DNA of 47,244 nt, taken from positions 1 through 47,244 of the forward strand of contig REEW01000137.1 of the NCBI GenBank assembly GCA_007694885.1, written 5' to 3'. This DNA comes from Wenzhouxiangella sp. (lineage in GTDB: Bacteria; Pseudomonadota; Gammaproteobacteria; Xanthomonadales; Wenzhouxiangellaceae). The notes under the pieces were generated by a model that saw only the letters and a list, made by a program, of their open reading frames with translations, was not told where the DNA came from and ran no database searches. Below are positions 1-976 of this stretch, in pieces. The first letter of the stretch is position 1. The number at the start of each line of letters is the position of its first letter. Position numbers and translations under genes: made by a program.

Positions 1-61
1 TAATGGCGGGCTGATCAGCACCAAAGCCACGAGTAACCGGAGAGGTGGCAGAGTGGTTGAA

Positions 62-137
62 CCGAGCCGTTAGGCGAGCTCGATGCGGCCGGAAGGCCGC
101 ACCCGAAGGGCAAGCCCGCTTTGGCGGGCGCAGTCAA
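62..137 (+). repeat. Multi-hairpin element type A, copy 1 (76 bp)
   Basis: The element is a chain of short hairpins joined by fixed linkers: GCC-GTTA-GGC, linker GAGCTCG, GCGGCC-GGAA-GGCCGC, CCC-GAA-GGG, linker CAA, GCCCGC-TTTG-GCGGGC, and the tail GCAGTCAA. It follows a GAA from tRNA D-loop sequence. The next copy begins immediately at 138. No open frame of interest is present. Confidence 0.75.
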
Positions 138-213
138 CCGAGCCGCCAGGCGAGCTCGATGCGGCCGGAAGGCCGCACCCGTAGGGCAAGCCCGCTTTGG
201 CGGGCGCAGTCAA
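138..213 (+). repeat. Multi-hairpin element type A, copy 2 (76 bp)
   Basis: This is the same length and architecture as the copy at 62-137. It differs at three bases only: GTTA to GCCA in the first loop and GAA to GTA in the third loop. All three changes fall in predicted loops, so every stem is kept. The tail CAA is followed by TCCCCCC, as in a tRNA T-stem. Confidence 0.75.
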
Positions 214-247
214 TCCCCCCGCCACAGGGGATGACCAAGTCGAATCA

Positions 248-340
248 GGAGAGGTGGCAGAGTGGTTGAATGCGGCGGTCTCGAAAACCGTTAAGGGCTT
301 TATAGGCCCTTCGGGGGTTCGAATCCCCCCCTCTCCGCCA
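248..340 (+). tRNA. tRNA-Ser (anticodon CGA)
   Basis: Acceptor arms GGAGAGG (248-254) and CCTCTCC (330-336) pair perfectly, followed by G and an encoded CCA. The anticodon loop CTCGAAA gives anticodon CGA at 282-284. The long variable arm (AAGGGCTTTATAGGCCCTT region) is typical of serine tRNAs, and the T-loop is GGTTCGAATCC. No clear promoter lies directly upstream because hairpin elements occupy that space, so transcription may start before the broken copy at 39. Confidence 0.95.
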
Positions 341-350
341 TCATTGAAGA

Positions 351-375
351 AGCCCGCCTCGCGCGGGCTTTTTTT
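351..375 (+). terminator. Intrinsic terminator after tRNA-Ser(CGA)
   Basis: Stem AGCCCGC (351-357), loop CTCGC, stem GCGGGCT (363-369), with a run of seven T from 369 to 375. It lies 10 bp after the tRNA 3' end. Confidence 0.85.
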
Positions 376-380
376 AATGA

Positions 381-410
381 GCGCCGCGAGGCGCGCAGTC
401 TATCCCCCCC
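381..410 (+). repeat. Truncated multi-hairpin element (3' end only)
   Basis: Hairpin GCGCC-GCGA-GGCGC (381-394) is followed by GCAGTCTATCCCCCCC. This has the layout of the last hairpin, the GCAGTCAA tail and the TCCCCCC flank of the type A element, but with a different stem sequence. The upstream hairpins are missing. It lies between the first terminator and the second tRNA gene. Confidence 0.5.
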
Positions 411-453
411 CTCACTGAACGCCAGGTCTGATAACATTCCAGCTCGGCTTTGC

Positions 454-543
454 GGAGGGGTGGCAGAGTGGTCGAATGCACCGGTCTTGAAAACCGGCAA
501 GGGTTAGCGCCCTTCGTGGGTTCGAATCCCACCCCCTCCGCCA
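454..543 (+). tRNA. tRNA-Ser (anticodon TGA)
   Basis: Acceptor arms GGAGGGG (454-460) and CCCCTCC (533-539) pair, then G and CCA. The anticodon stem CCGGT/ACCGG encloses CTTGAAA with anticodon TGA at 488-490. The variable arm is long, as in serine tRNAs, and the T-arm is GTGGG-TTCGAAT-CCCAC. Its 3' end and terminator were copied into the 175-bp tandem repeat that follows. Confidence 0.95.
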
Positions 544-553
544 TCATCAAAAC

Positions 554-577
554 AGCCCGCCTCGCGCGGGCTTTTTT
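554..577 (+). terminator. Intrinsic terminator after tRNA-Ser(TGA)
   Basis: AGCCCGC (554-560), loop CTCGC, GCGGGCT (566-572), then T-run 572-577. Flanking ATCATCAAAA and TTTTGATGAT extend the pairing, so the hairpin could work on both strands. The same core occurs after the first tRNA. Confidence 0.85.
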
Positions 578-620
578 GATGATCGTGGCGGGGATTGCGG
601 ATGAGAATCCTGGGTTCGAA

Positions 621-701
621 CCGTAGGCCGCGCAGCGGCCGGAGCTCGCTGACGCGGAACGCGTCAGCCCGAAGGGCAAGCCGCCTTCGGCGGCGCAGCA
701 A
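621..701 (+). repeat. Multi-hairpin element type B, copy 1 (81 bp)
   Basis: The hairpin order matches type A with unrelated stems: GGCCGC-GCA-GCGGCC, linker GGAGCTCG, CTGACGCG-GAA-CGCGTCAG, CCC-GAA-GGG, linker CAA, GCCGCC-TTC-GGCGGC, tail GCAGCAA. It separates TTCGAA from TCCCAC, that is, it sits within T-loop sequence. Linkers and loops are conserved against type A while the stems change on both arms. Confidence 0.75.
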
Positions 702-728
702 TCCCACCCCCTCCGCCATCATCAAAAC

Positions 729-752
729 AGCCCGCCTCGCGCGGGCTTTTTT
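729..752 (+). terminator. Duplicated tRNA terminator in second repeat unit
   Basis: This is a copy of the terminator at 554-577 displaced by 175 bp. It no longer follows an intact tRNA, but would still stop readthrough toward icd. Confidence 0.7.
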
Positions 753-795
753 GATGATCGTGGCGGGGATTGCGGATGAGAATCCTGGGTTCGAA

Positions 796-876
796 CCGTA
801 GGCCGCGCAGCGGCCGGAGCTCGCTGACGCGGAACGCGTCAGCCCGAAGGGCAAGCCGCCTTCGGCGGCGCAGCAA
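796..876 (+). repeat. Multi-hairpin element type B, copy 2 (81 bp)
   Basis: This is the second copy of the element at 621-701, carried along by the 175-bp duplication. It again lies between TTCGAA and TCCCAC. Confidence 0.75.
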
Positions 877-976
877 TCCCACCCCCTCCGCCATCATCAA
901 AACAGCCCGCCTCCCCAGCCCGTCCCCAATGGCCGCGATGCTAAACTAGCGGTTTGCCAACAACAAGGATCATTCC

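Follow-up and report, generated by a model that had tools for sequence, protein, structure and literature searches.

A family of short, gene-less hairpin elements is found at tRNA genes of Wenzhouxiangella and its relatives. We read it, with a probability of about 0.5, as a non-autonomous mobile DNA family that folds as single-stranded DNA, inserts directly 5' of AAT and has been amplified beside intact tRNA genes. The elements were first seen near one end of the window, by which we mean the whole stretch of DNA analyzed (47,244 nt of contig REEW01000137.1 from Wenzhouxiangella sp.; source genome 2.6 Mb, 215 contigs). The original prediction of multi-hairpin elements beside tRNA sequence was borne out, and the elements are more extensive than first described.

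The prediction listed four full copies in two types and one truncated copy, and all five are present (Table 1). Type A is a tandem pair of 76 bp each and type B is 81 bp long. Because both type B copies lie within an exact 175-bp tandem duplication, type B counts as an independent case only once. As had been claimed, exactly three positions (70, 71 and 106) distinguish the two type A copies; all of them lie in loops, and the changes keep the loop form (GTTA to GCCA, GAA to GTA). Folding reproduced the hairpins that had been described, at moderate z-scores relative to shuffled sequences (−2.0 to −2.7). Both types had been placed at the junction between T-loop and T-stem. This held for type B, but for type A only on the right flank, where T-arm-like sequence is found (AATCCCCCC); the left flank is a 5' piece of tRNA-Ser ending in the D-loop (GGTTG^AA), making the type A site a chimera. 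Sequence comparison showed positions 39–61 to be identical to 248–270 of the intact tRNA-Ser. When the window was searched with Rfam, tRNA alone reached the gathering score, and relaxed thresholds gave only sub-gathering matches beyond tRNA.

Table 1. Elements, tRNA genes and tRNA fragments in the window.
Feature	Position	Strand	Basis
tRNA-Ser 5' fragment (acceptor, D stem, D-loop GGTTG), left of type A	39–59	+	repeat family D4
Type A element, copy 1 (AACCGAG...GCAGTC, then AA)	60–135	+	repeat family D5, fold
Type A element, copy 2 (differs from copy 1 at three loop bases)	136–211	+	repeat comparison
Right flank of type A pair, AATCCCCCCGCCA, T-arm/acceptor-like piece	212–224	+	sequence
Intact tRNA-Ser (CGA)	248–340	+	ARAGORN, Rfam RF00005
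Truncated element: final hairpin GCGCC-GCGA-GGCGC and GCAGTC, then TATCCCCCCC	381–400	+	sequence
Intact tRNA-Ser (TGA)	454–543	+	ARAGORN, Rfam RF00005
175-bp unit, copy 1: tRNA 3' end, terminator-like hairpin, spacer, type B element	525–699	+	repeat family D1
Type B element, copy 1 (GGGTTCG^AACCGTAGG...GCAGC^AATCCC)	619–699	+	sequence, fold
175-bp unit, copy 2 (exact duplicate)	700–874	+	repeat comparison
tRNA-Ser 3' fragment (AATCCCACCCCCTCCGCCA), right of type B copy 1	700–718	+	repeat family D3
Type B element, copy 2 (identical to copy 1)	794–874	+	repeat comparison; R1 74.6 bits
tRNA-Ser 3' fragment, right of type B copy 2	875–893	+	repeat family D3

A covariance model, R1, was built from an alignment (A1) of 30 hand-picked copies among 51–53 distinct elements. 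It was afterwards searched in the genomes of its source copies, where those copies match by construction. In the window, R1 matched type A copy 1 at 55–139 (59.3 bits) and type B copy 1 (74.6 bits), both of which are part of the alignment, as well as type A copy 2 at 140–216 (45.3 bits). The covariance search of relatives that had been proposed gave matches in 42 of 91 genomes at E ≤ 0.01, which is beyond chance. The matches fell in 25 of 30 genomes within the genus, in 8 of 13 other Wenzhouxiangellaceae genomes and in 9 of 48 genomes from the rest of the order, the last with a single match each. The single-contig genomes G018, G026 and G027 had 18, 14 and 6 matches, respectively. The core pattern was also present in 31 public stretches, including 17 from Wenzhouxiangella and 2 from Wenzhouxiangellaceae; three Rhodococcus stretches were dropped as coding-like by eye. 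In ten genomes picked for holding a copy, a short exact pattern matched 40 times, compared to none for the reversed control. Plasmid searches gave E values of at least 0.4 among the matches listed (15 of 35 and 15 of 128 records), and no match to the Wenzhouxiangella pattern was detected in viral contigs.

The elements are short DNA lacking genes, with at least two hairpins and many dispersed copies. They are mostly 60–95 nt long and consist of mini-hairpins in a row, in the order H1, GAGCTCG or a variant, H2, CCC-GAA-GGG (or TCC-GAA-GGA), CAAG, H4 and CGCAGC. At the Glu and Arg-ACG loci of G026, the ends were kept while internal hairpins were lost.

The junction with the flanking DNA is clean and lies directly 5' of AAT, which in tRNAs gives G^AATCC. 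Among 69 copies, the right flank was AATCC in 49, CATCC in 11 and AACCG, which is the start of a next element, in 5. The target GTTCG^AATCC was found in tRNA-Ser, -Arg, -Thr, -Gln and, weakly, -Glu; whether copies occur in other tRNA genes had been asked in the original prediction, which gave the site as GAA^TCCC. For two genomes, same-strand R1 matches at E 0.01 or better were assigned by hand to the nearest tRNA, some of them lying up to about 500 bp away. In G018, with 42 intact tRNAs called, strong matches accompanied 8 of 17 tRNAs with the T-loop TTCGAAT (10 of 17 with two weak ones) and none of the 25 with other T-loops. In G026, the numbers were 8 of 16, three of these weak (<30 bits), and 1 of 26, the exception being a degenerate element at Arg-CCT, which has the T-loop TTCGACT. 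Pooled, an element was present at 18 of 33 TTCGAAT tRNAs versus 1 of 51 others (Fisher p = 1.6e-8), or at 13 of 33 versus 1 of 51 when only matches of at least 40 bits were counted (p = 9e-6). A 21-bit match on the opposite strand, 436 bp from Val-GAC in G018, was left out of the count; including it gave p = 1.3e-7. Since the T-arms of the Ser tRNAs are identical or almost so, there are fewer insertion events than loci.

Intact tRNA genes were present in all six G018 clusters that were fetched, beside interrupted or partial copies. At Ser-GCT and Arg-CCG of G018, interrupted but otherwise near-complete tRNA copies lie 5' of the intact genes. Partial tRNA 3' copies lie downstream of intact tRNAs, in many cases separated from them by a terminator and a T-arm in inverted orientation. 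These downstream units have a direct-inverted-direct order: tRNA 3' end, terminator, inverted T-arm, then a direct T-arm with the element. At four loci (L210, L212, L215 and L221), the direct T-arm is preceded by a repeated series of terminator, inverted T-arm (from the same tRNA) and a spacer resembling CAATAACAATC. Another locus, L220 of G026, holds two strong copies with tRNA-Thr-like fragments, and no tRNA was called in this 1.5-kb stretch.

The alignment was then examined for paired changes in H2, H3 and H4. Pairing was present in 96.6% of 324 cells, compared to 80.8% after shuffling, and the covariation score was 0.338, compared to 0.090 for shuffled alignments; none of 500 shuffles reached it, and slid controls gave at most 0.077. 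The number of further pair types was not above that of the shuffles, 138 of 500 of which reached the same count. Changes in these three stems were two-sided in 39 cells and one-sided in 1, in agreement with the original prediction that both arms change together. A G.U pair was seen in one cell among about 313 paired cells, and covariation with G.U intermediates, as expected of a structured RNA, was not found in H2, H3 and H4.

The loops have a pronounced pattern. Counting perfect hairpins only (stem of at least 5 bp, loop of 3–4 nt), C(GNA)G or C(GNNA)G loops occurred in 78 of 110 element hairpins versus 26 of 784 and 38 of 784 hairpins elsewhere on the two strands of the same contigs, bearing in mind that the outside set is redundant and that the element copies are related. 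The third position of the GNNA loops was a pyrimidine in 16 of 29 cases, and there was thus no purine preference as in GNRA loops of RNA. DNA mini-hairpins that conform to a wider cGNAg/cGNNAg rule are extra-stable. One such hairpin, d(GCGAAGC), is described as extraordinarily stable in PMC10527192. With DNA folding parameters, the tRNA-sense strand was the better folder for 26 of the 30 elements, and with RNA parameters for 11 of 30; the mean DNA strand difference of −1.07 kcal/mol was smaller than the spread among random windows (sd 2.35), and the parameters used give no bonus to GNA triloops. The pairing and loop pattern fits selection on the folded, single-stranded DNA of the tRNA-sense strand. 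Arm-to-arm copying of changes by template switching inside the hairpins could be an alternative source of the covariation.

Look-alike elements were found in metagenome-assembled genomes (MAGs) of Muribaculaceae and Lentisphaerae. One Muribaculaceae MAG (G061) had nine copies that share the core and the 3' end, and none with the reversed control; a search of Muribaculaceae MAGs with the 5' end gave many further copies. These elements start with ACCACGAAGTG, end with CGCAGCAA and range from 40 to 141 nt. Several of them split a REP-like palindrome at GGACGGCATAGG^AATGCCGTCC (GG^AATGCC), the empty form of which, GGACGGCATAGGAATGCCGTCC, occurs in G062 and G064. Muribaculaceae genomes are rich in this palindrome, the pattern of which matched 113 times in G061, 33 in G062 and 21 in G064, but not at all in G063. 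At L179, the empty form of a different kind of site, AAGATTTGGATAATCTT, lies less than 100 nt from a filled one. The longest element, about 141 nt (L162), has extra nested mini-hairpins, as if it had grown by hairpin insertion. A Muribaculaceae-type element in the same palindrome as L162 was seen near position 2753 of a putatively viral 76-kb IMG/VR contig (L271); it was the only element among three viral-contig matches to the Muribaculaceae 5' end, and none of eight viral-contig matches to an end pattern was an element by eye.

The Muribaculaceae sites were collected into lists of 18 and 19 distinct sites, excluding flanks with N or at contig ends. When the two flanks were joined, a hairpin with a stem of at least 5 bp formed at 9 of 18 sites, compared to 101 of 1885 AAW sites chosen at random and to 36 of 306 flanks that had been mispaired. 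With the coarser list, a hairpin formed at 7 of 19 sites, and after related sites (REP-like, TGGAT) had been merged by eye, at 5 of 15 (p = 9e-4 versus random sites). Direct repeats of 7–10 nt were present instead at 4 of 19 sites versus 7 of 342 mispaired pairs, which counts against the reading preferred here. Apart from a possible AA of 2 nt, the REP-like, palindrome and CRISPR sites showed no target duplication of fixed length.

A copy of about 85 nt in the Lentisphaerae MAG splits a CRISPR repeat at GTTTC^AATCCACGC (GTTTC^AATCC; L049, 1077–1193). The interrupted repeat is the one farthest from the cas-like ORFs, which were named by eye. A scan of Bacteroidota found the pattern in 4 of 395 genomes, with G061 alone looking real, and a scan of the phylum of the Lentisphaerae MAG matched 15 of 288, three of which look real: the starting genome (G065), G626 and G667. 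Most single matches in these scans are chance matches, since the reversed control matched in more genomes than the pattern did (11 and 29). Judged by their sequences, the Wenzhouxiangella and Muribaculaceae elements could be one family, as they share the core and end words; they may also have converged. The same kind of site is struck in tRNA genes, in a REP-like palindrome and in a CRISPR repeat.

Several other explanations were weighed against a mobile hairpin DNA. The elements might be REP-like and be moved by a Y1/HUH transposase (RAYT or TnpA of IS200/IS605) that reads hairpins on one strand, with cleavage at the AA to the left of the element and at the element end, GCAA or TCAA. Y1/HUH enzymes act on strand-specific single-stranded hairpins at a short fixed target word and leave no obligatory target duplication, a mode that the strand-specific hairpins and fixed target word match. 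Y1 proteins were also found in 12 of 14 genomes, comprising that of the window and element-bearing ones. However, among 27 genomes of the genus searched, Y1 was present in 7, and 15 of the 22 that bear elements had none, including G003, G012, G019 (99% complete) and G024 (97%). Around 30 Y1 loci, the pattern found no complete element, no repeat copies flanked a RAYT gene in the manner of GTAG REPs, and R1 gave one weak match (L111, 16.9 bits, E 0.033). In the Lentisphaerae genome (L102, about 1821–1833), a bare CCCGCAGGGCAAG motif directly follows the stop of a Y1-transposase-like open frame; it speaks for such an enzyme, although the motif is not a complete element. A Y1 transposase was not supported as a neighboring or co-occurring gene, no autonomous copy of the element was found, and we consider this explanation possible but doubtful. 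Alternatively, there may be no transposition at all, and the elements would have spread by template switching and by recombination through the shared T-arm (GGTTCGAATCC), the paired changes being due to quasi-palindrome copying. The direct-inverted-direct units are a signature of template switching, tandem units of about 175–190 bp recur among the element loci, and the arms change jointly with almost no one-sided state. Against this, Muribaculaceae copies with identical ends occupy unrelated sites, and homology of the T-stem alone leaves the preference for TTCGAAT over TTCGAGT unexplained, the GG/CC stems being similar. We regard this course as unlikely.

A functional structured RNA in tRNA precursors, such as a processing signal, a small RNA or an intron, appears far less probable, even though the covariation is strong and co-transcription is possible at L211 and L215, where an apparent −10 box, judged by eye, accompanies interrupted tRNA copies situated 5' of intact ones. 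The near absence of G.U pairs, loops that are not of the GNRA kind, the weak preference of RNA parameters for the sense strand, an intact tRNA in each of the six G018 clusters fetched and Rfam's silence on anything other than tRNA in the window all argue against it. Together with the similar elements outside tRNA genes, these observations leave the originally suggested structured RNA added to tRNA transcripts without support. Tyrosine recombinase islands that target tRNAs could have left attachment sites behind; at attR sites, an intact tRNA is typically followed by a partial tRNA 3' end, as is seen here. This, too, is highly improbable in our view, as similar rows of hairpins are also present in a REP-like palindrome and in a CRISPR repeat, and interrupted tRNA genes that are nearly complete precede intact ones. 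Readings as integron attC sites, group II introns, IS110 or casposons were set aside on the general descriptions of those systems.

The other half of the original prediction, a site-preferring mobile element too small to code for anything, agrees with the copies in relatives, the GTTCG^AATCC target, the paired stem changes and the empty sites in Muribaculaceae. In the mobile hairpin DNA reading that we prefer, the tRNA-sense strand, when exposed as single-stranded DNA, would fold into extra-stable mini-hairpins and be cut out or copied in this form. The single-stranded element would then be joined into single-stranded DNA 5' of AAT, presumably most readily where the target itself loops out, as in a T-arm or a REP-like palindrome. 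The joining enzyme might act in trans, a HUH/Y1-like single-strand transposase being the best guess, or might belong to host repair. At tRNA loci, insertions would persist since one gene stays intact after tandem duplication. A bolder version, which we think improbable, is a selfish replicator with no transposase at all: a row of extra-stable single-stranded mini-hairpins, copied or set free at replication forks and joined by host enzymes 5' of AAT in other hairpin loops, those of tRNA T-arms, REPs and CRISPR repeats among them, in several phyla. Bacteria would then have their own equivalent of the mobile hairpins of organelles, which are unexplained.

The elements appear to be a new family, similar in kind to REPs and to organellar hairpin elements, as far as a comparison of descriptions can tell. 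No report of such elements at tRNA T-loops was found in the open-access literature searched, although several of the searches were aimed elsewhere. Non-autonomous relatives of IS200/IS605 (PATEs) have single-strand hairpin ends, make no target duplication and insert beside a short fixed word; here, in contrast, no transposase partner was found, no guide sequences were identified, and hairpins fill the whole element. Rickettsia palindromic elements are short palindromic mobile elements in bacterial genes; they differ in structure and are not known to occupy one fixed T-loop position. REPs of the GTAG and CGTC classes are likewise short palindromic repeats, and PMC3733652 describes RAYT as acting on single-stranded REP DNA and the CGTC class as having no known transposase. 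Unlike REPs, the present elements have several hairpins each, no conserved GTAG or CGTC tag and no complete copy beside Y1, and the Muribaculaceae copies insert into a REP-like palindrome. GTAG at the hairpin foot was not conserved by eye in the 30 elements of A1; it is present in type B of the window and absent from most other elements.

Along with REPs, the mobile hairpins of organelles come closest in kind; they, too, are short hairpin DNA lacking genes and located in intergenic and structural-RNA regions. Double-hairpin elements and yeast mitochondrial GC clusters are short, gene-less organellar hairpin DNAs of scattered distribution. The sponge RHE is described in similar terms, as gene-less hairpin DNA scattered in intergenic and structural-RNA regions (PMC2800124), and neither the end structure nor the target seen here appears in the descriptions of RHE and REPs given in the parts of PMC2800124 and PMC3733652 that deal with them. 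The present elements differ from the organellar ones in being bacterial, in usually having four mini-hairpins with GNA or GNNA loops, and in their fixed insertion 5' of AAT with a preference for T-loops. They also carry a warning that covariation of paired arms need not imply RNA function. Present in bacteria in many copies, and with their target (G^AAT) and ends defined and their loops of the DNA type, they allow experiments on the long-standing problem of how hairpin DNA without genes moves.
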